IMG/VR virus record: IMGVR_UViG_3300013136_000537
Span: 1-35,008 of that record
Length of the DNA: 35,008 nt
Origin: a virus
Direction: 5' to 3' (one strand)
This document shows positions 1,527 through 27,383 of the stretch, piece after piece. Each line of letters opens with the position of its first letter. Position 1 is the first letter of the stretch. The position numbers were made by a program, and so were the translations under genes. The notes under the pieces are model-generated. The model worked only from the letters and a program-made list of their open reading frames with translations, had not been told where the DNA came from and made no database searches.

Positions 1527-2288
1527 ATGAAATTAAATAACATTTATTCAGCTTTTGAAGGTGAAGGAATTTGGATAGGAACACCAACAGTATTTGTAAG
1601 ATTTCAAGGTTGTCAAATTTGTTGCCAAAACTGTGATAGTAAAGAAACTTGGAACTTTAAAAAAGGAAAAGAACTTTCCCAAGGTCAAATAGCTGCTGAA
1701 GTATTTGAAAAGTTTCCAAATATAAGAAGAGTTAGCATAACAGGTGGGAATCCTTTAGAACAAGATCATACCAAATTGATAGACTTGATTCATCTTCTAA
1801 AACTTGAAGGGCATAAGATAGTAAATATAGAATTACCTGGTGTTTATGATAAAGAAAATTTCAAAGATAATCCAGATCAATTTGTTAAATTACTAAATAT
1901 AACAGATCAATTATCTATTGACATTAAACCACCAAGTACTGGAAGGTGGAACGAAAGTTTAGACACATTTGTATATCAGTATCATGATATTCTAAAAAGT
2001 AATATTCTTTTTAAAAATAAACAGCAACAAGTAAAAATGGTTATAAGCAATACAGAAGATGATTATTTGGCTTTAGAAGAAACCATTGAAACTTTAGAAC
2101 GAATAAATTATTTACATCCTTTTGTAATTACACCTTGTTGGAATACTGGAGACAAATTTGAACAGATGAATTGGATTGATAATTTATATACTTTAGTAAA
2201 GAAAATTGAAAGTATAAAGAAATTAGATATTCGAATAATTTTACAGCAACATAAAGTTATTTATGGATCAGAAAGGCAGGATATATGA
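1527..2288 (+). CDS. queE: 7-carboxy-7-deazaguanine synthase, radical SAM enzyme
   Basis: QueE converts 6-carboxytetrahydropterin to 7-carboxy-7-deazaguanine (CDG), the ring-contraction step of 7-deazaguanine synthesis, using a 4Fe-4S cluster and SAM. The start has the family signature YSAFEGEG (residues 7-14), GTPTVFVRFQGC, and the cluster-binding CX3CX2C formed by C29, C33 and C36, followed by D37. The SAM-binding GGxP appears as GGNPLEQ at 73-79, where most members have GGEP. The ribosome site AGGAG precedes the ATG. At 253 residues it is slightly longer than typical bacterial QueE. It works with FolE (5355) and the QueD-like protein (9163); no QueC is present in the window. Confidence 0.93.
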   Translation: MKLNNIYSAFEGEGIWIGTPTVFVRFQGCQICCQNCDSKETWNFKKGKELSQGQIAAEVFEKFPNIRRVSITGGNPLEQDHTKLIDLIHLLKLEGHKIVNIELPGVYDKENFKDNPDQFVKLLNITDQLSIDIKPPSTGRWNESLDTFVYQYHDILKSNILFKNKQQQVKMVISNTEDDYLALEETIETLERINYLHPFVITPCWNTGDKFEQMNWIDNLYTLVKKIESIKKLDIRIILQQHKVIYGSERQDI

Positions 2289-2533: not shown

Positions 2534-3328
2534 ATGAAAGTATTCTTACCAAATGTATTTGACCAATTCCTAAAAAATATGAGTTTAGGAAAAATTGTAA
2601 ATGAAGCAGTAATAAGTATTCGATCAGATTCTATTACTACAAGAATTCAAAATTATCCAGAAAAGACTTTATTAGTTTATGGATCAATTGATTATGATGG
2701 ATCTAAATTAGATTTGCCAGATCTTGAATATAAAACCAAAACAGAAACATTTACAGAAAAAAGATATGATCTTGGACTTCCAGCAATTGATCTTTTACAA
2801 AGAGTTTTTAGTTCGTTAGAACAAGACGATTCAAACAAAGTTCAATGTCAAATTGATACCAATGCAATCTTACTAGCAGATCAACAATCAACTTATCGTA
2901 TTATTCTTTGTTATCCAGACATTATCCATGTCCCACCTAAATTGAAACCTTTATCTTATCCAGTGGAATTTACTTTAGATAAAAAAGAAGTAGATGTTTT
3001 AATGAAAGGCATGTCTAACATTTCTGAAGATATGTTTTCAGTAATTCAAGAAAATGGTGAAGCCAAGATTAAGATTGGTATTGACATTACAAATAATTAC
3101 ATTAAGACTATTGTTAATGAAAGCGCACATGACCAAGCAAATGATAATTTCGAAAAATTCTTTATGAAAGATCATGTTTATTCAATTCTTGGTACAAGTA
3201 AATATATCGATGGTATTAAGTTTGGAGTAAGTGATAAAATTATGAAAATTACAGTAGAAGACAAATTGATTGGAATGAAATTTGAGTATTACTTAAGTCC
3301 AAAAGTAGTAGACAAAACAGATAATTAA
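2534..3328 (+). CDS. DNA polymerase sliding clamp (T4 gp45-like)
   Basis: This 264-residue protein sits directly upstream of the clamp-loader ATPase and small subunit, the same order (45-44-62) as in T4. It has the acidic, beta-rich, motif-poor composition of PCNA-fold clamps; T4 gp45 is 228 residues. A clamp encircles DNA, tethers the polymerase, and in T4 also activates late transcription. A strong ribosome site (AGGAGG) precedes the ATG. The call rests mainly on gene order, since clamps have few fixed residues. Four proteins in this window end in tails that look like ligands for such a clamp. Confidence 0.8.
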   Translation: MKVFLPNVFDQFLKNMSLGKIVNEAVISIRSDSITTRIQNYPEKTLLVYGSIDYDGSKLDLPDLEYKTKTETFTEKRYDLGLPAIDLLQRVFSSLEQDDSNKVQCQIDTNAILLADQQSTYRIILCYPDIIHVPPKLKPLSYPVEFTLDKKEVDVLMKGMSNISEDMFSVIQENGEAKIKIGIDITNNYIKTIVNESAHDQANDNFEKFFMKDHVYSILGTSKYIDGIKFGVSDKIMKITVEDKLIGMKFEYYLSPKVVDKTDN

Positions 3329-3354: not shown

Positions 3355-4269
3355 ATGGAAGAGAAAACTTTGTTTGTAGAAAAATATAGACCTAAAGAAT
3401 TAGATGATTTTATATGTCCTGAATCAATGAAAAATAAGTTTAAGTATTATTTAGATACAGAAGATATCCCACACATCTTGCTTTGTGGCCCTGCTGGAAC
3501 AGGGAAAACCACCATTGCTAAAATCTTTGCTAAAAAAATTGCAGGTGATTACATTTATATCAATGCTTCTGAAGAAAGAGGAATTGATGTATTAAGAGAC
3601 AAGATCAAAGGATTTTCATACTACATGGGGTCAGATGAAAACAAATTGAAAATTGTAATCTTAGATGAAGTAGACGGTACAACCCCGGTTTTTCAGGCTG
3701 CTATGAGAGGTACAATGGAAATGACATATAAACATACAAGGTTTATTCTTACATGTAATTATCCCCAAAAGATAATTGATCCTGTTCGTTCAAGATGTCA
3801 AATTTTTGAATTGAAATCATTTACAAAGGAACAGATTGTTGATAAACTTATCTATATACTTAAAAATGAAAAAATCACTTTTAACAAAACAGATGTAGAA
3901 GATATTGCTAGAAGTACGTATCCAGATATTCGTTCAGCTATAAATACTATTCAGAAATTCTCCCAGCAAGGAAAATTAACAGTAGACAAGAGAATAATAC
4001 TTACTGATAATAATTCGAAAATTATGGAGTTTATATTAAGGAAAGACTGGAAATCTGCTAGAAAATTAATGCTGGAAGAAGGAATAGATTATGAAGAATT
4101 ATATGAATTTTTATTTACAGAATTTGCGGAAAATAAGATGGAACTTGATGATACTGCAACTGGCGATATTCTTCTATCAATTAACGAATCTTTATATCGA
4201 CAATCTTTTGTAGCAAGTCCAGATATAAATGCTACTGCATGTATGATTGATATTATTAGCAAACTATAG
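3355..4269 (+). CDS. Clamp-loader ATPase subunit (T4 gp44-like, RFC small-subunit family)
   Basis: This AAA+ ATPase opens the sliding clamp and loads it onto primer-template DNA. After the family's opening FVEKYRP (residues 7-13) come Walker A GPAGTGKT (45-52), Walker B VILDEVD (101-107), the TCN of sensor 1 (133-135) and the arginine-finger motif SRC (146-148). At 304 residues it is close to T4 gp44 (319). A GGGGGG-containing ribosome site lies before the ATG. The next gene, the small loader subunit, starts 6 bases after the stop, fitting translational coupling and a fixed stoichiometry. Confidence 0.93.
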   Translation: MEEKTLFVEKYRPKELDDFICPESMKNKFKYYLDTEDIPHILLCGPAGTGKTTIAKIFAKKIAGDYIYINASEERGIDVLRDKIKGFSYYMGSDENKLKIVILDEVDGTTPVFQAAMRGTMEMTYKHTRFILTCNYPQKIIDPVRSRCQIFELKSFTKEQIVDKLIYILKNEKITFNKTDVEDIARSTYPDIRSAINTIQKFSQQGKLTVDKRIILTDNNSKIMEFILRKDWKSARKLMLEEGIDYEELYEFLFTEFAENKMELDDTATGDILLSINESLYRQSFVASPDINATACMIDIISKL

Positions 4270-4275
4270 AAAAAT

Positions 4276-4830
4276 ATGCCAAATCCACAAGATAATACAT
4301 TATTCATTTTTCTAAAACAGATTACTGAAACTAAAGATAAAAATTTCATAGATAATCTACCAGAAGAAAAACGAAAAGCCCTAAATCCATTCATAATCAA
4401 TCTTTGGTTAAGTATGAATGAAAATTTGCTTCCATTAGCATCTTATCTAAACAAATATGTCTTTAATATGGATCTTCGTAAATATTATCATATTTGCAGA
4501 ACAATTATTCCGAAACACAAAGCCTGGTTTCAATGGCTTAAATATGAAAAGAAGAAAAAAGACGGTTCATATCCTAAATGGCTTATAGAATTAATAGTAA
4601 GAGAATATGAATTTATCAGTAAAAAGGAAGCTAAAGAATATGCAACACTTCTAATTATGAATAAAGGAATAATTGACATAGCTTTAAAATATCCTTTGGA
4701 AGACAAAGAGAAAAAAGAACTCTATAAGCTATGTCAATTAGAAATGCCAAAGATTGCCAAATCAACTATGACATATGAAAAACAAGAAAAAGTAGAAAAG
4801 AAAGATGATTTTGACGATATGTTTGAATAA
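4276..4830 (+). CDS. Clamp-loader small subunit (T4 gp62-like)
   Basis: At 184 residues this matches T4 gp62 (187) in size and in its place right after gp44. T4 gp62 is the non-ATPase fifth subunit that closes the loader ring. The sequence is helical and charged with no catalytic motif, so the call rests on order and length. No ribosome site precedes the ATG, consistent with coupling to the gene before. The C-terminus is acidic and ends DDFDDMFE, similar to the tails of the DNA polymerase, DpdA and one glycosyltransferase here, and so may touch the clamp. Confidence 0.8.
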   Translation: MPNPQDNTLFIFLKQITETKDKNFIDNLPEEKRKALNPFIINLWLSMNENLLPLASYLNKYVFNMDLRKYYHICRTIIPKHKAWFQWLKYEKKKKDGSYPKWLIELIVREYEFISKKEAKEYATLLIMNKGIIDIALKYPLEDKEKKELYKLCQLEMPKIAKSTMTYEKQEKVEKKDDFDDMFE

Positions 4831-4847
4831 AAGAAAGGGAGAGAAAA

Positions 4848-5009
4848 ATGTATACAAGAATGTTATCTGATGCAATTGCTATTAGACATAATGAAATTGT
4901 AAAAAGACTGCTAAAAACTTGGGAAGGGCTATATGATATATCAAAACTAAAAGCAGCCGCCCTAAAATATGAAAACAAAGAAATTCTTGAAATTCTAAAG
5001 AAGTATTAA
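4848..5009 (+). CDS. Small ankyrin-like protein, 53 residues
   Basis: A short gene with a good ribosome site (GGGAG before the ATG). It encodes AIAIRHNEIVKRLLKTW and AAALKYENKEILEILKKY, two helix pairs in the A-helix/B-helix pattern of ankyrin repeats (small residues, then xxEIVKxLL). It lacks the loop residues of a full repeat, so it is a minimal or degenerate member. It ends just before promoter P2. Function is unknown. The second ankyrin-like element within 2.5 kb of the broken one at 2285. Confidence 0.6.
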   Translation: MYTRMLSDAIAIRHNEIVKRLLKTWEGLYDISKLKAAALKYENKEILEILKKY

Positions 5010-5013
5010 AAAA

Positions 5014-5053
5014 TTTGGAAATTTTTGCTATATTTATTAAATTTATAAATAAG
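5014..5053 (+). promoter_or_regulatory. Promoter P2, TTGGA-N15-TATTAAATTTATAAATA type
   Basis: TTGGA at 5015-5019 is followed after 15 bases by TATTAAATTTATAAATA (5035-5051). The last eight bases, TATAAATA, equal the T4 late-promoter core. It lies in the gap before the operon that runs from 5096 through FolE, DpdA and the glycosyltransferases to the DNA polymerase, and probably drives all of it. It matches P1 closely, including the flanking AAAAAATTTGGAAAT upstream. Confidence 0.65.
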
Positions 5054-5095
5054 AAGAATTAAAAATTTTATGAAACAAAAGGAGGAGTTATAAAA

Positions 5096-5332
5096 ATGTC
5101 TGAAACAAATCTTACTCCAATTATGAAATCCCGCTTAATCGATGTTCAAAAATTTATCAAACGAATACAAGGACCCATGGAATCTTATGGTATAACCCTT
5201 GAAGCAATTAATTACGACTACCATAAAGATTCTGAATTAATAACATTTTCTATATCATATAACATAAAAAATCCAGAATTTATGGATGAGTATGCTAATA
5301 GTGAAGAAAATGAAATAGAAGAAGAACAGTAA
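5096..5332 (+). CDS. Small acidic protein, unknown
   Basis: A 78-residue protein, first gene after promoter P2, with a strong AGGAGG ribosome site. The core (RLIDVQKFIKRIQGPME, then ITFSISYNI) looks like a helix followed by a beta pair, and the C-terminus is a Glu-rich tail. I do not recognise it. It ends 22 bases before FolE and shares its transcript. Confidence 0.65.
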   Translation: MSETNLTPIMKSRLIDVQKFIKRIQGPMESYGITLEAINYDYHKDSELITFSISYNIKNPEFMDEYANSEENEIEEEQ

Positions 5333-5354
5333 AATTTCCAAATAGGGAGGAAAA

Positions 5355-5975
5355 ATGACAAAAGTTATAAAGAAAATCGAAGCAAATGGAAATCAAATTC
5401 TAAATGAAAAAAATAAAAGAATTAAAAAAGTTTCAAAACATCTATATAAATGTTTATTAGAAATGGGTTTTGATCCAGAAGATCAAAACTTAAAAGAAAC
5501 ACCAAATCGGGTAGCTAAAATGTGGATTAATGAATTATTTTCAGGGTGTTCAGAAGAAGAACCAAAGGTTACCATTTTTGAAAATGTTAAAGACTATGAT
5601 CAAATAATAGTATTAGATTCAATTGATCTAATTTCAACTTGTTCCCATCATTTTATGCCATTTCATGGAAAAGCATATATCGCTTATATACCAGATAAGA
5701 AAATAGTAGGAGTTTCTAAATTAGCAAGAGTAGTTCAATGGTATATGAAAAGACCGCAAATTCAAGAAGAGTTAACTTGCCAAATTGCTAATTATATAAA
5801 TGAAGTATTACAACCTTTAGGTGTGGGGGTAATTATTAAAGCTAAACATTACTGTATGATAGCAAGAGGAGTTAAACAGAATAATTCAGAAATGATTACA
5901 TCTAAGTTAATAGGCAACTTTAAAGAGAATCAAGTTAAGAATGAATTTCTAAAACTAATAGAAATAAAAGAGTAA
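5355..5975 (+). CDS. folE: GTP cyclohydrolase I
   Basis: FolE turns GTP into dihydroneopterin triphosphate, the entry step shared by folate and 7-deazaguanine synthesis. The sequence has the family core intact: ETPNRVAKMW (48-57), STCSHHFMPFHGKAYIAYIP (94-113), VGVSKLARVV, RPQIQEELT and KHYCMIARGV (164-173). Zinc ligands C96, H99 and C167 and the catalytic His pair are present. At 206 residues it is close to E. coli FolE (222). The ribosome site GGGAGG precedes the ATG. With the QueD-like protein and QueE in the same window, its product is probably directed to 7-deazaguanine for DNA. Confidence 0.95.
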   Translation: MTKVIKKIEANGNQILNEKNKRIKKVSKHLYKCLLEMGFDPEDQNLKETPNRVAKMWINELFSGCSEEEPKVTIFENVKDYDQIIVLDSIDLISTCSHHFMPFHGKAYIAYIPDKKIVGVSKLARVVQWYMKRPQIQEELTCQIANYINEVLQPLGVGVIIKAKHYCMIARGVKQNNSEMITSKLIGNFKENQVKNEFLKLIEIKE

Positions 5976-5977
5976 AG

Positions 5978-6634
5978 ATGGAAAATTACGAAACAAAATT
6001 AGTAAATTTGATGATTAACGATAAACCTGTTATTGTAAAAGTTTATAAAGATGATTTGATTGGCAATCATTTAGAGAAAAGAAAATATCCTTATGAAAGA
6101 AGATATTTGAAAAAATGTTTACTTTACATGAGAGAAGGTTCTGAAAGTATAGTAATAGATTGTGGGGCAAATATTGGTAATCATTCTATGTTTTGGTCTG
6201 AATATGTTTCTAAAATTATTGCAATTGAAGGATTCCCGCCAACTTTTGAATTACTAAAGTATAATATTGAAAATAATGGGTTTACTAATATTTATCCAAT
6301 TTTAGCAATGTTATCATCTAAATCGAAAGAAAAATTTATTACGAAAATTCATAAGAAAAACATGGGTTCAAATATGTTTGTACCAAACACTAAAGGTGGT
6401 ATAAATTCTAATACTTTAGATGTTGTTTTAAATTGTTCGAAGTGTGATTTCATAAAATTAGATGTAGAAGGGTTTGAACTTAAAGTTTTAGAGGGTGCAA
6501 AAGAAATTTTATCTAAATTTAAACCCTTTTTGGCAATAGAATTACATGAAAAAGAAAATAGAGAAAAAATAAACCAATTTCTAAAATTTATGGGATATCA
6601 AAAAGATAACTATATGTTTAAAGGAGACATTTAA
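5978..6634 (+). CDS. FkbM-family SAM-dependent methyltransferase
   Basis: Members of this class methylate hydroxyls of sugars and other small molecules. Motif I reads VIDCGANIGNHSMF (59-72), followed by AIEGFPP as the acidic SAM-ribose site and IKLDVEGFELKVLEGA (159-174), the diagnostic FkbM signature. The gene starts two bases after FolE and ends two bases before DpdA, so it is translated in one block with the base-synthesis genes. A methyl transfer to a sugar or side chain on the modified base is a reasonable guess, but the substrate cannot be read from sequence. Confidence 0.85.
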   Translation: MENYETKLVNLMINDKPVIVKVYKDDLIGNHLEKRKYPYERRYLKKCLLYMREGSESIVIDCGANIGNHSMFWSEYVSKIIAIEGFPPTFELLKYNIENNGFTNIYPILAMLSSKSKEKFITKIHKKNMGSNMFVPNTKGGINSNTLDVVLNCSKCDFIKLDVEGFELKVLEGAKEILSKFKPFLAIELHEKENREKINQFLKFMGYQKDNYMFKGDI

Positions 6635-6636
6635 AA

Positions 6637-7947
6637 ATGTTAAGACTTTACCCAGCATATTCAATTACAGCAAAAACTATATTAAATAATCAAAAAGTAT
6701 GTTCAACCGAATTTGATCAATATTTAAAAAATGTTCTTTATAAAACTTGTGAAAATGTCTTATTATCTTTTTCTTTTCATTATAATGATAATCCAAAGAT
6801 ACGAACAAAATTTCATTATTCAAAAAATGTTTTGGGAGATTCTGGTGGATTTCAATTAGCGCAAAAAGAAATATATAAAGATAATTTCAAAACCGATACT
6901 AAATTTATAACACCAAAAAATGTTTTAACATGGCTTGAAGATAATTGTGATTTTGGAATGAATCTTGATATACCCCCCATTATTAATAAATCAAATGATA
7001 ATTATGAATCAATTTTTGATAATTCTTTGAAGGTATCAAATGAAAACTTTGATTATTTTCAAAAAAATCGAAATGAAAATAGCAATTTAAAATTGTTTAA
7101 TGTATTACATGGAAGAAATTTTGATTTTATACAAAAATGGTTTGATATGGCCAGTAAGTATGAATTTGAAGGATGGGCAATAGGCGTTAAGCCTAATTAT
7201 AATCCTATTTTTATGATTCTTATACTTTTATTTTTATATGATAGGCTTAAAAATCAAGGCAAAAATTTAGAAAATTATTATGTTCATATTCTTGGAACCG
7301 ATGCATATCCACTTTTATTTGCTTTAGCGAAATTTAATTCATTTTGTAACATAAAATATCTTTCATATGATTCCTCCACATATTCTACTGGATCACAATA
7401 TGCTCAATTTCAGGTTCCAACAGGATATCAACATGAACGATTTTTATTAGATTTTCATTTAAAAATGGATAGAGAAACAGTTACACAAATTAAAAATAAT
7501 ACATCATATACATCCGGAAATTTAATTCTTGATGATTATATACGAAATGGGTTAAAAATGCCTTGTCTTTGTGAGCTATGTTCTTCTTGGAATGAATTCA
7601 TAGATAAAAATGAAAAATATGTTAATGATGATTTAATATTTAGATTTACCGGAATAAATTGCTCACATCATAATTTATTACAAAGATTAACATATACCAA
7701 ATTTTTAAATGGGTTAATGTTAAATCAAAGTTTCTTTAATGTTTATGCAAAAACATTATTCAAACAAAATGATACTAATTTTACTGAAACTATTAAATCT
7801 TTTGAAATTATGGAAAAATATTTCATAAAAGGAATTAGCATAAATAATCTAATAAAATCATATTTTCCAACAATAGAACAAACTATTTCAAGAATTATGA
7901 ATAATGATAATTTTCAAACTTTTGATGATAGCTTATTTGAGGAATAA
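6637..7947 (+). CDS. dpdA: DpdA-type DNA-guanine transglycosylase (TGT superfamily)
   Basis: TGT-fold enzymes swap guanine for a 7-deazaguanine; the DpdA branch acts on DNA. Motifs appear in order: GDSGGFQ (67-73) with D68 as the general acid/base position, LDIPP (110-114, base-recognition Asp), AIGVKP (181-186), HILGTDAYP (217-225), nucleophile candidate D245 in SYDSS, and the zinc site C310-x-C312-xx-C315 with H344 or H345. It lacks the tRNA-type PTR segment after the nucleophile, which favours a DNA substrate. At 436 residues it is longer than bacterial TGT. It ends FDDSLFEE, a tail like that of the DNA polymerase, so it may bind the clamp. Strong ribosome site AAGGAG. Confidence 0.88.
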   Translation: MLRLYPAYSITAKTILNNQKVCSTEFDQYLKNVLYKTCENVLLSFSFHYNDNPKIRTKFHYSKNVLGDSGGFQLAQKEIYKDNFKTDTKFITPKNVLTWLEDNCDFGMNLDIPPIINKSNDNYESIFDNSLKVSNENFDYFQKNRNENSNLKLFNVLHGRNFDFIQKWFDMASKYEFEGWAIGVKPNYNPIFMILILLFLYDRLKNQGKNLENYYVHILGTDAYPLLFALAKFNSFCNIKYLSYDSSTYSTGSQYAQFQVPTGYQHERFLLDFHLKMDRETVTQIKNNTSYTSGNLILDDYIRNGLKMPCLCELCSSWNEFIDKNEKYVNDDLIFRFTGINCSHHNLLQRLTYTKFLNGLMLNQSFFNVYAKTLFKQNDTNFTETIKSFEIMEKYFIKGISINNLIKSYFPTIEQTISRIMNNDNFQTFDDSLFEE

Positions 7948-7950
7948 AAA

Positions 7951-8421
7951 ATGAATTTCTTTTTTGGAAAAGAAGTTGAAGGAAGATTTCGAAATTATCC
8001 AACTTTATTTGTTATTAGTGATCAAGAAATAGATCATATTCTAAAATATTCTAATGAATATAAGGTAAAGCAAATTTATTTTGGTGCTGGATTTCAATCA
8101 AAAGTTAATAATTTAGATATTTTAAACAAAATCAAATTAAAAGTTAAAGATGAAATTCTTGTTAGTTATGAATTTGTATTTAAATCATTATCTGAATATA
8201 TACAAATTAAAAAATTATTGCCTAAATGTCATTTGATTATTTGTTTTAAAAACATAGACCTAAGTAATATTTTATCATTTATATATCTATTATGTTTTAA
8301 ATCAAGTAATAAATTATTAACTGTTAAACTTGAAACAAAGAAAAATATTACTTGTTTTAATAGTTATAAGAAATATGTTAATTCTTGGAATGTGTATAAT
8401 GATGATATTGTTTTGGAGTAG
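7951..8421 (+). CDS. Unknown protein between DpdA and the radical SAM gene
   Basis: A 156-residue protein that begins FFGKEVEGRFRNYPTLFV, then alternating beta and helix segments (QIYFGAGF, HLIICFKNID, LLTVKLET) suggestive of an alpha/beta fold. It has no catalytic signature that I can name and no Cys cluster. It sits 3 bases after DpdA and 5 bases before the radical SAM gene, all in one block, so it probably belongs to the modification pathway. Candidate roles are a partner of DpdA or of the radical SAM enzyme, or an unrecognised replacement for a missing step such as QueC, but it lacks a QueC ATP motif. Confidence 0.65.
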   Translation: MNFFFGKEVEGRFRNYPTLFVISDQEIDHILKYSNEYKVKQIYFGAGFQSKVNNLDILNKIKLKVKDEILVSYEFVFKSLSEYIQIKKLLPKCHLIICFKNIDLSNILSFIYLLCFKSSNKLLTVKLETKKNITCFNSYKKYVNSWNVYNDDIVLE

Positions 8422-8426
8422 TAAAA

Positions 8427-9161
8427 ATGAAAATATTTCAATTTGAAATAACAAACATTTGTCAGTTTAATTGCTGGTATTGTCCAAGAAAATTTATGAA
8501 AAGAGATCTTGGGTGGATGTCTAAAAATTCAATAGATAGAATTTGCAAAATTATTGAAAATAATGAAACTCAATTACATCATTATGGCGAATCATTATTT
8601 TTTCCAGGCATTGTATATTATGCTATTGAATCGTTGAATAAAAAAAATGTTAAAAGTATACTAAATACTAATGGAGAATTTTTAACAAATGAAATATGTT
8701 CAAATTTAGTTGATAGAAATATACATCAGATAATTATTTCATATCATAATGATTTAAGTTTGAAAAATTTATCTTTTATAAATAAAGAATTTCGAGAAAA
8801 AATTACTATAATTAAAATAACAGAAGATTTAGAAAAGCAATATCCTGAATTTGATAAACTAAAAGAACAAGGATTTAATATTGAATTAAAACGGCTTCGT
8901 AATTTAGGAAATGTAAATATTATAAAAGATTCATTTGAAATTGCAAAATCTGAAAAATGTTCTTTTGTTAAAAATAATGAATTTGTAGTATTATGGAATG
9001 GAGATATAGTTCCATGTTGTGAATGTTTCGATGATACATACAAATTAGGAAATATTTTTAATGATAATTTACAAAACATGAACAATATATACTTTTCACA
9101 ATGTAAAAATTGTTTAGGTTATGGTAATGAAGAATCAGAAACAGAAAAAATAACATATTAA
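8427..9161 (+). CDS. Radical SAM protein with C-terminal Cys-rich (SPASM-like) region
   Basis: Cluster-binding CX3CX2C is at C12, C16 and C19 in ITNICQFNCWYCP, near the N-terminus as usual. A second cysteine set, C178, C197, C198, C200, C226 and C229, surrounds VVLWNGDIVPCC, the layout of SPASM or twitch domains that hold an extra Fe-S cluster. At 244 residues it is short for a SPASM enzyme. It has no glycine-rich GGEP in the usual form. Its place between DpdA and the QueD-like gene suggests it modifies the 7-deazaguanine side chain or a protein partner. Substrate unknown. Confidence 0.82.
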   Translation: MKIFQFEITNICQFNCWYCPRKFMKRDLGWMSKNSIDRICKIIENNETQLHHYGESLFFPGIVYYAIESLNKKNVKSILNTNGEFLTNEICSNLVDRNIHQIIISYHNDLSLKNLSFINKEFREKITIIKITEDLEKQYPEFDKLKEQGFNIELKRLRNLGNVNIIKDSFEIAKSEKCSFVKNNEFVVLWNGDIVPCCECFDDTYKLGNIFNDNLQNMNNIYFSQCKNCLGYGNEESETEKITY

Positions 9162-9162
9162 A

Positions 9163-9498
9163 ATGAAGCAATCAATTTACATTAAGACAATTTTCGAAGG
9201 ATTTCATTCTTGGCCATTTGCACCAAAAGAAGTAGAATTTTTAAAGAATAAACATCGACATCTTTTTAATGTTTATGTTGAAGTTGGAGTTAATCACAAT
9301 GATAGAGATGTTGAATTTTTCATGTTTAAAAGAGAAGTAGATAAATTTATCAATGAAAAATTTGATAAACAGGATCTTGGTAGTTGTGAAATGATGTGTG
9401 AACGGATTTACCAAGGATTTAAAGAAAAGTATTCTATATTGGAAATTCGAGTAAACGAAGATGATGAAAACGGTGCTATTCTAAAAATAACTGAATAA
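9163..9498 (+). CDS. queD: QueD-like 6-carboxytetrahydropterin synthase family protein
   Basis: QueD converts dihydroneopterin triphosphate to 6-carboxytetrahydropterin, between FolE and QueE. The zinc triad is visible as H15 (FEGFHSWP) and H31/H33 (KHRHLFNV), followed by EFFMFKREV (51-59) and SCEMMCERI (74-82), which occupy the places of the family's DFxxLK and TxExxA motifs. At 111 residues it is close to the usual ~120. The catalytic Cys that bacterial QueD has four residues before HxH is not there. The ATG follows the previous stop by one base with no ribosome site. Confident about family, less so about activity. Confidence 0.72.
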   Translation: MKQSIYIKTIFEGFHSWPFAPKEVEFLKNKHRHLFNVYVEVGVNHNDRDVEFFMFKREVDKFINEKFDKQDLGSCEMMCERIYQGFKEKYSILEIRVNEDDENGAILKITE

Positions 9499-9509
9499 GG
9501 AAAACAGAA

Positions 9510-10493
9510 ATGATTTATCTAATAGATTTGGAACCCATAGAAAAAAGATATACAAAACAATGGTCTACTTGGATACCAGAAATGTTTTATAAATTAAATA
9601 CAGAAATTAAAATTATTTCTGGTAATATTTACGAGTTCCAAAAAGGTCAATTTTTAGATTTTAATAATACGAATAAATATAAAGCTGACCAGATTTTAAA
9701 AATAGCCAATTTATTCAATGAAGGAAAAGTTAAATCTGGTGATATTTTCTTTTTCTATGATGGATATCATTTTGGTATTACAGCTTTAAAATATATGGCG
9801 CAGTTAAATGATATAGATATAAAAATTGCAGCTATTTGGCATGCAGGAAGTTATGATCCTTATGATTTTATTACACAAGCCGGAATGGATTACTGGAGTA
9901 AATTTCAAGAAGAAGCTTGGTTTATGGCAACGGATTTTATATTTGTAGCTACTAATTTTCATAAAGAATTAATATTAAGAAGTAGAAATGTTTTGCCAAG
10001 TAGTATCTATGTAACAGGATTACCATTTGATTTTTCATTTTCAGATATTATTTTACCAAAAAAAGAAAATATTGTAATTTTCCCTCATAGAAAATCACCA
10101 GAAAAAAGATTAGACATATTTTTAGAAATAGAAAAAAAATTCCCAAATTATCAGTTTATAGTAACAACAGATGTTACAAATACTAAAGAAGAATACTATA
10201 AATTACTTTCTAAAGCTAAATTTGTTTTTTCTGCTAATTTACAAGAAACATGGGGAATAGGCACTTTTGAAGCTGCTGCATTAGGATGTATTCCTATTAT
10301 TCCAGATGATCTTAGTTATAAAGAAATGTATAATGAAATTTTCCGATATAAAACAATTGATGAAGCCGAAAATATGATAAGTGATGAACGATATAAATAC
10401 AAGCGAGAAATATTAAAAAAAGATATTTCTTTAATAAAATATAATTCTGAAAATTCTATTCATTTGATGAACAAAATTATGATGAAAGAATAA
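9510..10493 (+). CDS. GT-B glycosyltransferase (GT4-like) in the modification operon
   Basis: A two-domain GT-B enzyme of 327 residues. The N-terminal half has AIWHAGSYDPYD (109-120). The C-terminal half has IFPHRKSPEKRLDIF (190-204), a Lys/Arg pair typical for binding the nucleotide diphosphate, and ETWGIGTFEAAALG (246-259), the GT4 donor-site motif with both Glu residues. The enzyme should be a retaining nucleotide-sugar transferase. It lies between the QueD-like gene and a second glycosyltransferase, so a DNA-base acceptor is possible but not shown. No membrane segment or signal is present. Ribosome site AAGGA. Confidence 0.85.
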   Translation: MIYLIDLEPIEKRYTKQWSTWIPEMFYKLNTEIKIISGNIYEFQKGQFLDFNNTNKYKADQILKIANLFNEGKVKSGDIFFFYDGYHFGITALKYMAQLNDIDIKIAAIWHAGSYDPYDFITQAGMDYWSKFQEEAWFMATDFIFVATNFHKELILRSRNVLPSSIYVTGLPFDFSFSDIILPKKENIVIFPHRKSPEKRLDIFLEIEKKFPNYQFIVTTDVTNTKEEYYKLLSKAKFVFSANLQETWGIGTFEAAALGCIPIIPDDLSYKEMYNEIFRYKTIDEAENMISDERYKYKREILKKDISLIKYNSENSIHLMNKIMMKE

Positions 10494-10495
10494 AA

Positions 10496-11887
10496 ATGGA
10501 ACCTTTAATTTGTATCCCTTTAGATAAATATAATGATAGTCAAAATATTTGTGGAAGAATTTTTAATCAAAACTATTCAAATTCTTTTATTTTAGAAAAT
10601 CCAGATTCTGATTTTAGATGGGGATCAAGTATTTCAAATACTATTTTAAAACAATTCCCATATAAAGATGTGGATGCCGATTTTATTTATCTAAATGATA
10701 AAAGTTCAATAAATCATTTTTTAATAGGTCAAACTAATTCTTTTAATTATTTTAAACTTTTACTAAAATTTTATTGTTTAAATGACTTTTATAAAAATAA
10801 AAAAGAAACAGTTTTGCTTGATACTAAAAAAAATAGATCATTTCTTGAATTTTCTTTTTTTGAAAAATTTACTTCTATACTAAAGGCGGATATTGTTTGG
10901 GTTACATCTAATGAAATGTTTGAAGATATTTTATTTTTTTTAAAAAATAATTTTAGTAAAAGAATAACGGAAAATTTTCAAAATAAGTCAATAATCACTC
11001 CACCATTTTGTGTTTATAGATTTTTAAAGTTTGATCCCTTTATATACAATGAAAAAAAGTATAATGATATAGTTTTTATTTGGAATAATCGGGTAACTGC
11101 TGAGAAAAGATTTAATTTATTTTTAGAGACAGTTCAATTATTTCAATTAAATTATCCAAATATTAACAGTTATGTATATATAACATGTGATAAAAAAGAT
11201 CTTAATAATCATAATCAAGTAATAATAGATAAACTAAAAAATGTTAATTTAACTGGTTTCATTTCAAATAAAGAAGAATATGAAAAATTAGTCAAAAAAT
11301 CAAATTGTCATATTGTTACTACAAACAGAGATAGTTTTTATTCATCGTTATATGATTCAATTTCAAAAGACAATGTCATTTTTAGTTATTCTGATACAAA
11401 TATTTACACACCTATTTTTGGGAATAGATATGCATGTAACACAATAGAAGAAATGGTAAATAAAATATATGAAACATTTAGAAGTAAAGATAGAATAGTA
11501 GAAAACATTATCTATCACAAAAATATTGTTAAAAATTTACCAAAAATAGAAGATTCTGTTAAAATTATAACAAATAAATTGCAAATGGTTTTAGAAAAAC
11601 ATGTTAATTCTTTAGGGATTATGAATGAATCTGTTGGAATAAATAAATTATTAAAGTTAATTGAAAATAAAAAAATTGTAACAAAACGGGATTTATATAA
11701 AGAACTAGAATTTACTATAGGAATAAATGATTTTTGGCTTATATATTATTATAAAATACGTAAGCTTGGAGTTAAAGTTAAATATTTTAATGGCAAAACA
11801 TATTATTTTTTGGATGACTTTGATTTTAATGAAAAAAGAAATCAAATTATTTCATCACAAATAGATAGTAATCTTTTTGAAGAATAA
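10496..11887 (+). CDS. Glycosyltransferase with C-terminal winged-helix-like domain and clamp-type tail
   Basis: The 463-residue protein has a GT-B C-terminal domain: FIWNNRVTAEKRFNLFLE (194-211), then SNCHIVTTNRDSFYSSLYDS (269-288) at the usual donor-site position, in a diverged form. After residue 375 comes a domain with the pattern of a winged helix: LLKLIENKKIVTKRDLYKEL, a helix, then KVKYFNGKTYYFLDD as the wing. The very end is SNLFEE, like the tails of DpdA and the DNA polymerase. DNA-binding domain plus clamp tail point to a DNA glycosyltransferase acting at replication forks; T4 alpha-glucosyltransferase is reported to bind its clamp. It starts two bases after the preceding gene. Confidence 0.78.
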   Translation: MEPLICIPLDKYNDSQNICGRIFNQNYSNSFILENPDSDFRWGSSISNTILKQFPYKDVDADFIYLNDKSSINHFLIGQTNSFNYFKLLLKFYCLNDFYKNKKETVLLDTKKNRSFLEFSFFEKFTSILKADIVWVTSNEMFEDILFFLKNNFSKRITENFQNKSIITPPFCVYRFLKFDPFIYNEKKYNDIVFIWNNRVTAEKRFNLFLETVQLFQLNYPNINSYVYITCDKKDLNNHNQVIIDKLKNVNLTGFISNKEEYEKLVKKSNCHIVTTNRDSFYSSLYDSISKDNVIFSYSDTNIYTPIFGNRYACNTIEEMVNKIYETFRSKDRIVENIIYHKNIVKNLPKIEDSVKIITNKLQMVLEKHVNSLGIMNESVGINKLLKLIENKKIVTKRDLYKELEFTIGINDFWLIYYYKIRKLGVKVKYFNGKTYYFLDDFDFNEKRNQIISSQIDSNLFEE

Positions 11888-11903
11888 AGGGGGGAGGAAA
11901 GTA

Positions 11904-14369
11904 ATGGAAAATTTAGTAAACATTGAAAATGTAGGAAACAAGATATATCTTTGGTATGTGGATGAAATTGGAAAATTAACAAAGAAAATAGATGAAAATT
12001 ATCGACCATATTTCTATGTTGAAGCCTCACAATTTTCGGAAGAATTACAAGATAGTAAAGAATATCAAACTATTGATGGAAACACTGTTATAAAAATGTT
12101 TTTTAATGATTTAAATGAACTAAAAGAAAAACAGAAAGAATTTGAAGCACAAGATATTTCAATGTGGGAATCTGATATAGACTATGTTCAAAGATATCTA
12201 TTGGATAAATTCTCATATAAAGTAAATACAAAGTTACTTCCAGTTAGAACATGGTTTTTAGATATAGAAGTTTTAGTTGGTAATAAATTTCCAGAATTTA
12301 CAAATCCTACAAATCCTATTACAGCAATTTCCATATATGATACTATGTTAAAGAAAGTAATTACATTAGCTTGGCATCCTACAGAATACAAGAAAAATTT
12401 TCCTGGAGTTATGGTTTTAGAAAATGAAACAAAGATGTTAAGTACATTTATCGAACTTGTTAAAAAATTAGACCCCATGATTATTTCTGGATGGAATAGT
12501 GAAAAATTTGATTATCCATATCTTCTTTGTAGAATGTCTAAAATATTTGATAATGAAACCTTAAGAACATTATCTACAGTAGGAAGAATAGATATTAGTC
12601 CAGAATATGAAAGATTTAAAATTTACGGAAGATGTGAACTTGATTATATGTTACTCTATAAAAAATTCTCTATTAATGAAAGAGATAGTTATAGTCTAAA
12701 TTCGGTTAGTCAAGCAGAATTGGGAGAAGGAAAAATAGAATATAAAGGAAAATTAGATGATCTTTGGAAAAATGATTTTGCAAAATTTCTGGAATATAAC
12801 ATTCAAGATGTTAATTTGTTAAAAAAATTAGATGAAAATTTGAAATTTATAGATTTATCAAGAGAATTAACAGCTTATGCTAACATTAAGTTAGAGAAGG
12901 TATTTTACAATTCAATGTTAAATGAATCTTTAATTTTGACAAAAATTCACAAGGATGGATTTATATGTTTTGATAATCCTAACAAAAGTAAAGGTCATCA
13001 TGAATCATTTGCTGGGGGATATGTTAAAGATCCAATAGTGGGGTTACATGATTGGATGTTTTCATTAGATTTAACATCTCTATATCCAAGCATTATCAGA
13101 ACTCTAAACATGTCTTTTGATACTTTAGTTTTAGGAGATGAAAAACTAAGTGATGATCCTAATGCGGAAAATAAGATTAATACAGATTTTTATCGAAGTT
13201 GTAATGATCAAGCATTTGTTAAATCCCCAAGAGGAATCATCCCAACATTACTTGATACTTTGTTTACTAAAAGAATCGAATATAAAAAGTTAATGAAAAA
13301 GGCAGAAAAAGAAAATGATGAATATCTAACAAATTTTTATGATACAAAACAGTATACTATGAAAATTTTTCTAAATTCTATCTATGGATATTTAGGTATG
13401 CCATCAGCAAGATTTTTCGATAAAAGAATAGCAGAAGGAGTTACATTAACAGGTCAAGAAATTATCAAAAGTTCAATCAAGTATGTTGAAACTAGATATA
13501 AAAATCGAGTTCAAGCCATTGCAGCAGATACAGATTCAATGTATCTAAAAATACTGAATATGGAAGACATCAATTTAGAGAAAATTTTAGAATTTGCTAA
13601 TAGAGTAAACAACGATGTTAATACATATCTAATTAAAGAATTTAGTCCAAAACATTGTAATGTATTTCCAGAAAATAAAGAACCCAATTATTTTGAATTT
13701 AAATTTGAAAAGGTAATGTCGTCAGCAATTTTCTTAGCTAAAAAAAGATATGCAGCAAATGTAGTTTGGGATGAAGGATTCCCACCAAAACCAGGAAAAG
13801 AAATAAAAGTAATAGGAATCGAAGTAGTTAGATCAGATACCCCAATTTCTTGTAGAAAATTTATGAAAGAAGTATTGACAATGATATTACATCATAATAA
13901 AAAAGAGGAAGTAGACAAATATATCTTACAGTTTAAAAAAGATATAAAAAAGTTGCCATTGAGAGAAGTAGGAATCCCCATAGGAGTAAATGGAATAAAT
14001 AAATACTGGAATGTGGAAGAAAAAATCCCAAATGAAAATACACTCTGTAAAAAAGGAACACCTATTCAAGTTAGAGCAGCTATAAATTACAATGCAGCAT
14101 TTTCTAAATTTGGGCAAGATATGGATTATCCCGAAATAATTAATAGTGATAAAATCAAATGGTTCTATATTAAACCAACATCAAATTATAATGTTTCAGT
14201 TATGGCTATGAAAGAAGGAATAGAAAAGCATATAGAGCAGTTTCAAATTGATTGGGATTCGATGTTAGCAAGATTAGTAGATGGAAAAATCGAAACTATT
14301 TACGAACCTTTAAATTGGGGATCACCACAAGATCCAGCAGTTCAAATTTCCGATGAATTATTCGAGTAA
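11904..14369 (+). CDS. Family B DNA polymerase with proofreading exonuclease (T4 gp43-like)
   Basis: Replicative polymerase of 821 residues. The start at 11904 follows a very strong GGGGGGAGG site. Exonuclease motifs: D120/E122 in FLDIE, D203 in GWNSEKFDYPYL, and Y298/D302 in YNIQDVNLL. Polymerase motifs: A, DLTSLYPS (389-396); B, K487 with NSIYG (491-495); C, ADTDS (541-545). All catalytic carboxylates are kept. T4 gp43 is 898 residues. No intein or intron is seen. It ends SDELFE, the position and character of the T4/RB69 tail that binds the sliding clamp. It closes the operon that begins at 5096. Confidence 0.96.
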   Translation: MENLVNIENVGNKIYLWYVDEIGKLTKKIDENYRPYFYVEASQFSEELQDSKEYQTIDGNTVIKMFFNDLNELKEKQKEFEAQDISMWESDIDYVQRYLLDKFSYKVNTKLLPVRTWFLDIEVLVGNKFPEFTNPTNPITAISIYDTMLKKVITLAWHPTEYKKNFPGVMVLENETKMLSTFIELVKKLDPMIISGWNSEKFDYPYLLCRMSKIFDNETLRTLSTVGRIDISPEYERFKIYGRCELDYMLLYKKFSINERDSYSLNSVSQAELGEGKIEYKGKLDDLWKNDFAKFLEYNIQDVNLLKKLDENLKFIDLSRELTAYANIKLEKVFYNSMLNESLILTKIHKDGFICFDNPNKSKGHHESFAGGYVKDPIVGLHDWMFSLDLTSLYPSIIRTLNMSFDTLVLGDEKLSDDPNAENKINTDFYRSCNDQAFVKSPRGIIPTLLDTLFTKRIEYKKLMKKAEKENDEYLTNFYDTKQYTMKIFLNSIYGYLGMPSARFFDKRIAEGVTLTGQEIIKSSIKYVETRYKNRVQAIAADTDSMYLKILNMEDINLEKILEFANRVNNDVNTYLIKEFSPKHCNVFPENKEPNYFEFKFEKVMSSAIFLAKKRYAANVVWDEGFPPKPGKEIKVIGIEVVRSDTPISCRKFMKEVLTMILHHNKKEEVDKYILQFKKDIKKLPLREVGIPIGVNGINKYWNVEEKIPNENTLCKKGTPIQVRAAINYNAAFSKFGQDMDYPEIINSDKIKWFYIKPTSNYNVSVMAMKEGIEKHIEQFQIDWDSMLARLVDGKIETIYEPLNWGSPQDPAVQISDELFE

Positions 14370-17662: not shown

Positions 17663-19039
17663 ATGATAAAACCAAATGGAAGTAGATTAAAAATACTTGT
17701 ATTAGGAGATGATCCAAGGATACCTTCTGGTGTAGGAGTTATGACTGAAGCAATTACAAGGGGATTTGTTAAGGAAGGATGGGAAGTCTTTTGTTTAGGT
17801 GGGGCAATGCGAGAAAGACCTGAACAGCTTGTTATGGATGAAATAGGTAGAAAAATTCTTCCTATTCCAGGATATGGTGATATTATGTTAATAAGACAAG
17901 TAATAGCAGCAGAAAAACCAGATATTATGTGGATTATGACAGACCCAAGATATTGGACTTGGCTTTGGGCATTTGAAAATGAAATTCGAATAAAAATGCC
18001 TCTAATTTATTATCATGTTTGGGACGATATTCCAGCACCCAAATACAATGATCCATATTACGAATCTTGTGATGAAATTCTTTGTATTTCAAAACTTTCA
18101 TATGATATCGTTAAAGAAGCTAAAAAAAGAAATAAAGCAAATTACAGATATTCATACATTCCTCATGGAATAGATCTTGAAAATTACAAACCTCTTCCTT
18201 TAGATACTATTATTGAAAATCCAGCAGAAATGCCTAAATGGATAAATGAAAATAAAGATAAACCAGAAGAACAGAAATCACCAAAACCAATTATTTCTCT
18301 GACTACTCTTTTGGAGAATTTGAAAAATGTAAATGAAAATGTAAGAAAAAATAAAAGCAAGATTAAGTTTATAGTGTTTTGGAACAATCGAAATATTCGT
18401 AGAAAAATGCCCACCGATGTAGTTTCTGCTTTTGCCAGATTTGCTAAAGATAAAAAAGATGTAATGTTAATTATGCACACAGATCCAGTAGATCAACATG
18501 GAACAGATATACCAAGAATGATAGATGATTTATTCCCCGATGCTCCCATTGTTATCGCTCCTCAGAAAGTACCAAAACAAGTATTAGCCAGCTTTTATAA
18601 TCTTTGCCAATGTACAATTAACATAGGTTCAGCTGAAGGGTTTGGATTATCAAGTGCTGAATCTTTAGCTTGCGGAATTCCCATTATTAACATCTTAACC
18701 GGTGGATTGCAAGATCAAGTGTCATTTACAGAAAATGGAATAGAGAAATTTACTGGCATATGTATTGATCCAGATGCAGTAGTTACTGTAGGATCTCCAC
18801 CTACACCTTACATTTATGAAAGGTATGTGGATATAGATTCAATAGTTAAAGCATTGCAAGAAATGTATGATATTTATAAAAATAATCCCATTAAATATGA
18901 AGAATTCAAAGCTAATGCCAGAAGAAAAGCAGAATTAGAATTTGATGAAAAAATAATGGTGCAAAAACACATTGATTCTGTTAAATCAATTATTAAGACA
19001 TGGGAACCAAGGAAAAGATGGGAGATGTTTCAAGTATGA
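17663..19039 (+). CDS. GT4-like glycosyltransferase
   Basis: A GT-B enzyme of 458 residues. The N-terminus, LKILVLGDDPRIPSGVGVMT (9-28), is the acceptor-domain glycine loop, followed by IYYHVWDDIPAPKYN and YIPHGIDLENYKP, a GT4 hinge motif. The donor motif SAEGFGLSSAESLACGIPI (about 322-340) has both catalytic-site Glu residues. Between the halves there is an insertion rich in Pro, Lys and Glu. It probably moves a sugar from a nucleotide donor to a small or polymeric acceptor in the cytoplasm. Acceptor unknown. Stop overlaps the next start (ATGA). Confidence 0.88.
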   Translation: MIKPNGSRLKILVLGDDPRIPSGVGVMTEAITRGFVKEGWEVFCLGGAMRERPEQLVMDEIGRKILPIPGYGDIMLIRQVIAAEKPDIMWIMTDPRYWTWLWAFENEIRIKMPLIYYHVWDDIPAPKYNDPYYESCDEILCISKLSYDIVKEAKKRNKANYRYSYIPHGIDLENYKPLPLDTIIENPAEMPKWINENKDKPEEQKSPKPIISLTTLLENLKNVNENVRKNKSKIKFIVFWNNRNIRRKMPTDVVSAFARFAKDKKDVMLIMHTDPVDQHGTDIPRMIDDLFPDAPIVIAPQKVPKQVLASFYNLCQCTINIGSAEGFGLSSAESLACGIPIINILTGGLQDQVSFTENGIEKFTGICIDPDAVVTVGSPPTPYIYERYVDIDSIVKALQEMYDIYKNNPIKYEEFKANARRKAELEFDEKIMVQKHIDSVKSIIKTWEPRKRWEMFQV

Positions 19040-19368
19040 AAATGAAAATAGATATATCAAAGAAACTTACAATTCTTACTCCTTTTGAAACTATCGAAGA
19101 ACAGATTAGAAAATTCGAAAAAGAAACTGTTGAGGTAAGTATATCTAATCTTCGACAATTTTTAAATGAAATCCTTAAACCATTTGAAGATATTATCAAA
19201 TTTGACATTTTTCACGGCAACACTAACTTCTTAGTTTATCTATATATTTTAAATGAAGATAAAACAAAAACCACACAAACCAAAGTTGTTGAAATTTTAA
19301 CAATCAAACAAACAGTAAATACATCGTCCGAAGCAAATATATATACATCCCATGAAGGAGAAGTATAA
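19036..19368 (+). CDS. Unknown protein, 110 residues
   Basis: The start at 19036 overlaps the preceding stop and has GGGAG upstream, so it is preferred over the ATG at 19000, which lies inside the glycosyltransferase. The protein is helical with a beta segment (DIFHGNTNFLVYLYILNEDK). The same frame stays open for 32 codons after the TAA, as RIITGLLSTYSFFDDKGV and onward to a TAG near 19464, hinting that a longer gene was truncated. Family not recognised. Confidence 0.6.
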   Translation: MKMKIDISKKLTILTPFETIEEQIRKFEKETVEVSISNLRQFLNEILKPFEDIIKFDIFHGNTNFLVYLYILNEDKTKTTQTKVVEILTIKQTVNTSSEANIYTSHEGEV

Positions 19369-19496
19369 GCAAGGATAATTACAGGCTTATTATCAACTTA
19401 TAGTTTCTTTGATGATAAGGGGGTTAACCATATAATTGATCTTAAAAAATCCATTACAACTTAGTAAATTTAAATTTTAAAAAAGGAAATATAAAA
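19369..19496 (+). other. Gap with an in-frame extension of the preceding gene
   Basis: This 128-base gap continues the frame of the gene before it past its TAA, with protein-like content to a TAG near 19464. No ATG, GTG or TTG lies in this frame near the start. No promoter or hairpin was seen. It ends with the AAGGA ribosome site of the next gene. Confidence 0.35.
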
Positions 19497-20099
19497 ATGG
19501 CAATAAAAAGAAAAGCAGTAGCTAAATCAGTAACAAAAGCCAAAGCAGTTAAAATTACTAAAGCTGTAACATCAAAAGTGTTAGTGGCAGAAAAATCAGA
19601 ACCTCGAGGATTTTTAGGGTTATTTAAACCTAAAAAGAAAAAACCAGAAGTTCAGATTAAAGGAAAATATACACCTTTACCAGTTAAACCATATGGTGAA
19701 CCTAAAAGAGTGGGGTTAAAAACTGTTGTGGGCAGTTTTAAAGCATATCCGGGTTCGGCATTTGAATTAACTCCTGGAACGGTAGCAGTGTTTAGATATG
19801 TAGGAGAAGATTCCCATGAACCAAGACCTACAGTTATAGTGTTTTCAGATGGTTTCTATAAAGGACTTTTACATGCTATAAACTTAATGTATTTAGATAA
19901 AGCTACTTTAAAAAAATTAAGAGATGTAATCAAAGACAACAAAGATAGAATAGGAAATCCAAAAGCATTCTATGATTCTACTTTAAAACATTTTCTTAGT
20001 TCTTTAGGAGACAGAGGTATAAATGCTTATAGAACTTATAAGAAAAGTGGCATAAGCGCTATAAGAATTTTTGATATGGATATTTTCGATATTCAGTAA
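19497..20099 (+). CDS. Phage protein with basic Lys/Ala-rich N-terminus, unknown
   Basis: The first ~50 residues are Lys/Ala-rich (KAVAKSVTKAKAVKITKAV), reminiscent of DNA- or membrane-binding tails. The rest is a compact domain with PGTVAVFRYVGED, PRPTVIVFSDGF and LLHAINLMYLDKATLKKL, then FLSSLGDRGINAYRTYKKSG. I recall the PTVIV...HGINLxYL arrangement in uncharacterised proteins of large tailed phages, where it may be virion-associated. No enzyme motif. It has an AAGGA site. The role is not known. Confidence 0.7.
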   Translation: MAIKRKAVAKSVTKAKAVKITKAVTSKVLVAEKSEPRGFLGLFKPKKKKPEVQIKGKYTPLPVKPYGEPKRVGLKTVVGSFKAYPGSAFELTPGTVAVFRYVGEDSHEPRPTVIVFSDGFYKGLLHAINLMYLDKATLKKLRDVIKDNKDRIGNPKAFYDSTLKHFLSSLGDRGINAYRTYKKSGISAIRIFDMDIFDIQ

Positions 20100-20119
20100 A
20101 GTTAAAAGGAGAAATAAAA

Positions 20120-20233
20120 ATGGCTTATGATTTAGAAAAAATGCCTTGTTTTTATCAAGATAAAGAAGATAGAAATGAAAAAACTGAGATTGTTTGCAAC
20201 TGTGATAAATTCTATAGTGTGTGGGGCTTATAG
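20120..20233 (+). CDS. Short Cys-containing ORF, probably truncated
   Basis: ATG with an AAGGAG site opens a 37-residue frame, MAYDLEKMPCFYQDKEDR and onwards to CNCDKFYSVWGL, ending at TAG 20231-20233. The frame immediately following, in another register, continues with VEYERCKNCDRRED, which gives a CxC...CxxC set of a zinc ribbon. The N-terminus does not look like TnpB, so this may be a separate small gene fused by deletion to the transposon remnant. Product, if any, unknown. Confidence 0.45.
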   Translation: MAYDLEKMPCFYQDKEDRNEKTEIVCNCDKFYSVWGL

Positions 20234-20444
20234 TAGAATATGAGCGTTGCAAAAATTGTGATAGAAGAGAAGATAAGAAAGATAGAGAAACATTGAAAAC
20301 ATCAACAGAGATGTAAATGGCGCAGTAAACATTTACAAAGTATGTACGGGCATTTATAATCTGCCACTTGACACCCTTAAAGTGTCTAAAAGGAGTGGAT
20401 GGGGATATGTGCATAAACAATCCCACCAACATTCACTTGAATAG
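20233..20444 (+). mobile_element. Remnant of a TnpB (IS200/IS605) gene C-terminus
   Basis: In one frame the sequence reads ERCKNCDRREDKKDRETLKT, close to the first zinc-ribbon half of TnpB. In another it reads INRDVNGAVNIYKV, the TnpB RuvC motif III (RDxNxAxNI) with its catalytic Asp, running to a stop at 20444. A deletion or shift separates the two. The rest of TnpB and any TnpA are absent, so it is dead. A small hairpin, GACAC (20370-20374) with GTGTC (20382-20386), lies inside it. Confidence 0.6.
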
Positions 20445-20509
20445 AAAGTATATAAATTTAGTATAGATTTTTTATGAATTTATATGAAATCAAATACTTT
20501 TTATATTAT

Positions 20510-20698
20510 ATGTGACTTAAAACAACAATAAAATCATTGATAATTAATGATGAGATTTTAAAGAAAGAACAAAAGTTAAAAGAATCCCAAGACAATTTTA
20601 CATTTAGTAGTTATGAACCTATTCCTTTTAAAGATGATATAACTGTTAATTCAAGTTTAGTTTGGAATCCTTTAAGATTTACAAAAATAGGACAGTAA
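20510..20698 (+). pseudogene. Decayed paralog of the next gene, stop at codon 2
   Basis: ATG at 20510 is followed at once by TGA, then LKTTIKSLIINDEILKKEQK and an open frame to TAA 20696-20698. The first 22 codons match the next gene, which has AGA where this copy has TGA. No ribosome site is seen, and the region before it is plain AT-rich sequence. The rest (SSYEPIPFKDDITV) differs from the neighbour, so this is either a fused fragment or an ORF using an internal TTG start. The TnpB remnant is 66 bases upstream. Confidence 0.5.
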
Positions 20699-20699
20699 T

Positions 20700-22297: not shown

Positions 22298-22299
22298 AA

Positions 22300-24846: not shown

Positions 24847-24848
24847 AA

Positions 24849-25232: not shown

Positions 25233-25249
25233 AATGGGGAGAGTAGGAA

Positions 25250-25408: not shown

Positions 25409-25423
25409 AATGGATAACTATTA

Positions 25424-27075: not shown

Positions 27076-27087
27076 GGAGATATAAAA

Positions 27088-27381: not shown

Positions 27382-27383
27382 AA

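Follow-up and report, generated by a model that had tools for sequence, protein, structure and literature searches.

A polymerase-like C-terminal tail on a phage DpdA suggests tethering to the sliding clamp

Four similar C-termini in a T4-like phage sequence

The window analyzed here is the whole of a 35,008-base stretch of virus DNA (IMG/VR record IMGVR_UViG_3300013136_000537, positions 1-35,008), in which genes of a T4-like phage (clamp, gp44-like and gp62-like clamp loader subunits, family-B DNA polymerase) are interspersed with 7-deazaguanine genes (QueE-like, FolE, DpdA) and other enzymes. Our subject is the C-terminal tail of DpdA and its likeness to the tail of the polymerase. A sequence-only reading had listed four proteins with such a tail, and had proposed that the modification enzymes among them are tethered to the sliding clamp. 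The genes and tails in question are the following.

2534-3328, plus strand: gp45/PCNA-like sliding clamp, to which the tails are proposed to bind; weak match to phrog_223 (E 4e-6)
4276-4830, plus strand: gp62-like small subunit of the clamp loader, extended at its C-terminus; phrog_225 covers residues 4-139 only
4810-4827, plus strand: gp62-like tail FDDMFE; the 184-residue protein ends KKDDFDDMFE
6637-7947, plus strand: DpdA, a TGT-fold DNA transglycosylase of 436 residues; weak TGT match in Pfam (1e-4), NCBIfam tgt_general 7e-7
7921-7944, plus strand: DpdA tail FDDSLFEE; the protein ends NFQTFDDSLFEE
10496-11887, plus strand: open reading frame (ORF) 10496, a 463-residue orphan with a tail and without a family match
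11861-11884, plus strand: ORF 10496 tail IDSNLFEE; the protein ends SSQIDSNLFEE
11904-14369, plus strand: family-B DNA polymerase (gp43-like), phrog_262 E 1e-188; ATG at 11904, stop codon ending at 14369
14346-14366, plus strand: polymerase tail ISDELFE; the protein ends AVQISDELFE

Translation of the window ORFs gave all four C-termini exactly as they had been read before. An [LM]FE or [LM]FEE ending is found in 4 of the 44 plus-strand ORFs and in none of the 2,895 ORFs of other T4-like contigs. One could envision that the likeness reflects chance or composition, given an AT-rich genome with many Phe, Leu and Glu ends and a pattern that was picked after the fact. Indeed, when the pattern is left open beforehand, about 4% of shuffles reach the same count of ORFs sharing some terminal trimer (with I, L, V and M merged), and because this excess is modest, the within-window statistics draw their weight from the fact that the motif of the polymerase tail is already known. 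With that motif as the prior, shuffled tails would give 0.025 such endings where four are seen (Poisson P about 1.5e-8), and DpdA homologs that have diverged widely still carry the tail, as described below. We therefore regard chance as quite unlikely overall and as already unlikely for DpdA, while it could still account for the gp62-like protein and ORF 10496.

The C-termini of T4 gp43, gp55 and gp33 bind the gp45 clamp, are highly similar and can be interchanged, and the equivalent polymerase tail of RB69 has been co-crystallized with its clamp (PMC2988020). T4 gp43 ends ASLDFLFG and gp55 ends PSLDFLYEAND. The tail of the window polymerase can be aligned with the gp43 C-terminus by which T4-type polymerases bind the clamp, and 115 of 120 polymerase homologs end in an [LFM]F tail, against an expectation of 11.5. 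By this alignment, the window polymerase has an ordinary T4-type tail, for which clamp binding, already known in T4, is the likely reading. The shared tail is probably a C-terminal sliding-clamp-binding motif made up of a hydrophobic residue, two to three mostly acidic or polar residues and L/F/M-F, often with acidic flanks. Short hydrophobic and acidic tails like that of the phage's own polymerase were present both in the window and in its relatives. Elsewhere in the window, a 200-residue protein of no known family (19497-20099) ends IRIFDMDIFDIQ, an end reminiscent of the RB69 polymerase tail.

The presumed receptor and the tail-bearing DpdA were both modeled. The AlphaFold2 model of the clamp (pLDDT 84) has a PCNA fold, and its best PDB matches are all PCNA (1rxm, E 9e-14), which together with the weak PHROG match upholds the earlier assignment of a clamp to 2534-3328. 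The DpdA model (pTM 0.80) has the TGT fold, the PDB matches listed for it are all TGT, and the catalytic aspartates of the DSGGF and YDSS motifs (D68 and D245) are invariant in the DpdA alignment. DpdA residues 424-436, which form the tail, have pLDDT values below 50, are predicted to be disordered and lie outside the TGT-fold body. In the alignment of 20 DpdA sequences, the tail Phe, which follows a hypervariable linker, is among a handful of columns with 90% conservation or more. Thus, by pLDDT and alignment alike, the tail is not part of the folded domain and comes after a linker of variable sequence.

Conservation of the DpdA tail and linkage to the clamp gene

Scans of IMG/VR with single sequences (DpdA, the polymerase and ORF 10496 as queries) returned no relatives; the IMG/VR relatives were obtained by alignment-based scans, which yielded 80 DpdA contigs, many of which also cover a polymerase. 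Past a variable linker, 50 of 78 DpdA homologs have a terminal [LFM]F tail, against 6.7 expected, and further homologs have the tail slightly inside the C-terminus. The counts for neighboring families were 0/79 for gp44, 0/42 for FolE and 2/66 (1.7 expected) for relatives of the glycosyltransferase encoded at 9510. On such homolog counts FolE, QueE, gp44 and the 9510-like glycosyltransferases were ruled out as tail carriers. Among 31 DpdAs of less than 70% identity, 20 have the core [FLMIVYW]xx[LFM]F within the last 60 residues (shuffled mean 5.3, maximum 12 in 500), and three decoy regions gave 5, 5 and 11. The expectation that the tail would be kept in homologs is thus borne out for DpdA and the polymerase and fails for the gp62-like protein, where only 2 of 47 homologs have it.

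The DpdA tails also resemble those of the polymerases encoded beside them. DpdAs of about 400-430 residues end FNKFFKF, VFNQFFE or IETFFDFN, and the adjacent polymerases end NKFFSFG, GKFFSF or ESFFEF; DpdAs of about 500-540 residues have FSSLFEGG, FNALFE or FDSLFD at or near the end, and the adjacent polymerases end TFNKLFEF or TFTSLFSFE. Polymerase and DpdA pairs from the same IMG/VR phage include GKFFSF with VFNQFFE and TFNKLFEF with FSSLFEGG. Distant DpdA homologs in cultured jumbo phages, located by tblastn, gave further pairs where the phage has a T4-like polymerase: NNTDLFDW (polymerase) and NNNDLFGW (DpdA) in Vibrio 2.275.O; HFDSLFGW and, about 30 residues from the end of DpdA, SFNSLFDVD in the PA5oct-type PAC2; and FNDLFTF and VEGLF in Sinorhizobium phage Phosso. 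The LF or FF class of the two tails agrees in 20 of 21 phages, an agreement that shared descent could explain, because the class changes only once on the DpdA tree.

A hydrophobic end might instead serve as a signal for degradation or localization, and bacterial proteases can recognize hydrophobic C-termini. We think that this is very improbable: a degron on a replicative polymerase would be odd, many of the ends are acidic, unlike ssrA-type tags, and in many group B DpdAs the motif lies about 30 residues inside the protein.

The position of the dpdA gene is informative as well. In 55 of the 68 contigs with a detected clamp, dpdA lies at most 150 bp from the clamp gene, always on the same strand, with dpdA first in 35 and the clamp gene first in 20; adjacency was found in 13 of 20 nonredundant contigs. 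The two genes are 3.3 kb apart in the window. This linkage bears on whether the tails could bind some other common partner that the polymerase shares, such as a single-strand DNA-binding protein, RNA polymerase or a helicase. The motif is short and generic, and clamp binding in this clade rests on sequence comparison, so that another partner is conceivable; however, the gene that dpdA adjoins, in both orders, is that of the clamp, and it is the clamp with which the RB69 tail was co-crystallized. Another partner is, in our view, unlikely.

Because the tail is widespread in DpdA homologs, is like the polymerase tail of the same phage and belongs to a gene that mostly lies beside the clamp gene, we consider it quite probable that DpdA is tethered to the sliding clamp through its tail. 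Separated from the TGT fold by a flexible linker, the tail would hold the enzyme to the clamp, and the exchange of guanine for 7-deazaguanine would be concentrated on clamp-loaded, freshly replicated phage DNA. We infer both the physical binding and the timing of modification from these comparisons. Of the modification enzymes for which tethering had been proposed, it is thus DpdA for which conservation, likeness to the polymerase and gene linkage argue; for ORF 10496 the proposal is less certain, as the enzyme identity is unconfirmed and homologs were not found.

Several observations weigh against clamp tethering. The gp62-like tail, with the count given above, is nearly unique to this phage, and searches for relatives of ORF 10496, including IMG/VR, found no homologs. 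Among the DpdAs, DpdA2 of Vibrio phage nt-1 is without a tail, although the nt-1 polymerase is T4-like, and tails are absent or weak in some others (L105, L158). The single change of LF/FF class on the DpdA tree means that co-variation with the polymerase tail is not demonstrated. Lastly, T4 alpha-glucosyltransferase binds gp45, yet its C-terminus (..FKEQFDIITK) has no polymerase-like tail, and this binding was judged not to be the main determinant of the glucosylation level, which was attributed mainly to expression (PMC13216743).

The two remaining proteins of the window call for separate readings. The gp62-like tail, the weakest case of the four, may provide an additional clamp contact peculiar to this lineage. 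ORF 10496 had been called a glycosyltransferase, an identity that we could not confirm, since it has no match at a meaningful E-value in Pfam, PHROG, NCBIfam or the PDB. Clamp tethering of ORF 10496 is plausible, and its tail is made more believable by the similar tails on DNA-modifying glycosyltransferases elsewhere.

Internal motifs (TLFG, SLFG, TLFSG, NLFGG) follow the TGT domain in TGT/DpdA proteins of the jumbo phages GR7B, Lauda, PhiXhv-12 and Motura (L004 8602-10218; L090 1366-2736; L092 1105-2811; L095 1165-2586). We excluded these as support, because neither a T4-type polymerase nor a DnaN-type clamp domain was found in these phages.

Other tailed enzymes and the 7-deazaguanine gene neighborhood

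A census of 2,943 ORFs of related contigs, which had been selected by polymerase or DpdA, counted 201 tails against 36 expected. No family other than the polymerases (110) and DpdAs (42) had over four members with a tail, and the other 49 tails were not clearly above the shuffled total. These 49 include four TET/JBP-type oxygenases (Pfam supports the identity of two and homology that of the others), a pair of related proteins resembling methylases (one of them matches an N6/N4-methylase under the curated cut-off), one D12 methylase, one protein of the T4 alpha-glucosyltransferase family, two TET-associated glycosyltransferases and two GT4-type proteins. In T4-like phages, polymerase-like tails (TLEEFFG, SLEDFFG, DLSKLF and similar) were seen on TET/JBP oxygenases, on TET-associated and alpha-glucosyltransferases and on N6 methylases (L025 15701-18369; L033 13992-15347; L046 3647-5718; L049 5389-6270; L054 5604-6410; L080 13823-15106; L188; L189; L190). 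The same is seen in cultured phages: Stenotrophomonas phage DLP6 has ATLDSFFA on the polymerase, ATLGDFFV on TET and DLSSFFN on TAGT; phage C48C1 has ATLEDFFG on the polymerase and ISLEEFFV on TET; and Caulobacter phage Cr30 has DLSSLFD on the polymerase, GATLF on TET and DLSKLF on a TAGT-like protein (match under the cut-off).

One interpretation, towards which we lean with less confidence than for DpdA itself, is that T4-like phages repeatedly added the clamp-binding tail of the polymerase to unrelated hypermodification enzymes (DpdA, TET/JBP oxygenases, TET-associated and alpha-glucosyltransferases, N6 methylases), so that the clamp would be a general platform coupling base hypermodification to replication. 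The DLP6, C48C1 and Cr30 tails support such a wider rule without proving one. As a separate observation, a ribonucleotide reductase small chain (L106 882-1871) ends NDYSVDSLF, a possible clamp-tail-like end on an enzyme of nucleotide supply.

The further genes of the window that belong to the clamp loader or to the neighborhood of dpdA are these.

1527-2288, plus strand: QueE-like enzyme of the radical SAM type, for the 7-deazaguanine pathway; matches to the QueE models of NCBIfam reach 2e-21, and none passes its curated cut-off
3355-4269, plus strand: clamp loader large subunit (gp44-like), without the tail; phrog_168 E 5e-77
5355-5975, plus strand: FolE, GTP cyclohydrolase I (7-deazaguanine pathway), without the tail; Pfam GTP_cyclohydroI 1e-61
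9163-9498, plus strand: small protein, phrog_17812; a QueD/PTPS-like reading, made by eye, is tentative
9510-10493, plus strand: glycosyltransferase without the tail; phrog_4356 1e-6

FolE and the QueE-like enzyme place 7-deazaguanine pathway genes near DpdA; QueC was not recognized within the 35-kb window. FolE, the small protein at 9163 and the glycosyltransferase at 9510 all recur in the DpdA neighborhoods of related contigs: FolE homologs adjoin DpdA in many of them, the small protein, which has no match in Pfam or NCBIfam, has 51 homologs and is conserved beside DpdA, and the glycosyltransferase has 66 homologs and is conserved in the DpdA neighborhoods of about 60 contigs. The conservation of this tailless glycosyltransferase beside DpdA suggests that the inserted 7-deazaguanine may be glycosylated. 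Also adjoining DpdA are a radical SAM/SPASM protein and an FkbM-type methyltransferase (8427-9161 and 5978-6634); the former was not found in related contigs, and homologs of the latter in L137 and L153 end NNLFEFV and SNLFEITL. Several more glycosyltransferase-like ORFs are spread across 17663-33214, and those at 17663 and 20918 also occur in Microcystis phage Mel-JY01 and in DpdA contigs. Ankyrin-repeat ORFs, similar to each other in sequence, lie at both ends of the record (24-776 and 34713-35006).

Relation to known clamp-bound and 7-deazaguanine systems

A tether of the proposed kind would help to explain how phage DNA is modified rapidly and completely enough to evade restriction, and how DpdA chooses phage over host DNA, as the enzyme would travel with the clamp of the phage itself, on phage DNA that has just been synthesized. 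The tail is also an easy sequence signature by which further enzymes coupled to the replisome could be found.

The phage DpdA/7-deazaguanine modification described by Hutinet et al. 2019 (PMC6884629) also involves a TGT-fold transglycosylase encoded close to FolE and QueE-like genes; we found no mention of a clamp interaction, whereas the present lineage has the tail and the linkage to the clamp gene. A full-text search of the open-licence literature likewise found no paper on a clamp-tethered DpdA, in agreement with the sequence-only reading, which knew of none.

T4 alpha-glucosyltransferase is a precedent, being, like the proposed DpdA, a phage DNA-modifying enzyme on the sliding clamp. Its interaction with gp45, on which the earlier reading had drawn, goes back to Sommer et al. 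2004, as cited in PMC13216743, and was confirmed by pull-down in 2026 (PMC13216743). A polymerase-like C-terminal tail is ruled out as the basis of this binding, since the enzyme has none.

The closest likeness in form is the sliding-clamp-binding motif (SCBM) of T4 gp55 and gp33, which, as in DpdA, is a short hydrophobic and acidic C-terminal tail on a variable linker, similar to that of the polymerase. However, gp55 and gp33 recruit RNA polymerase for late transcription, whereas the tail considered here is borne by an enzyme that exchanges DNA bases. Human DNMT1, which binds PCNA through a PIP box (PDB 6k3a), is likewise a DNA-modifying enzyme held on the replicative clamp by a short peptide; it differs in being a methyltransferase with a PIP box, whereas in the phage lineage the peptide would be a C-terminal tail on a transglycosylase.

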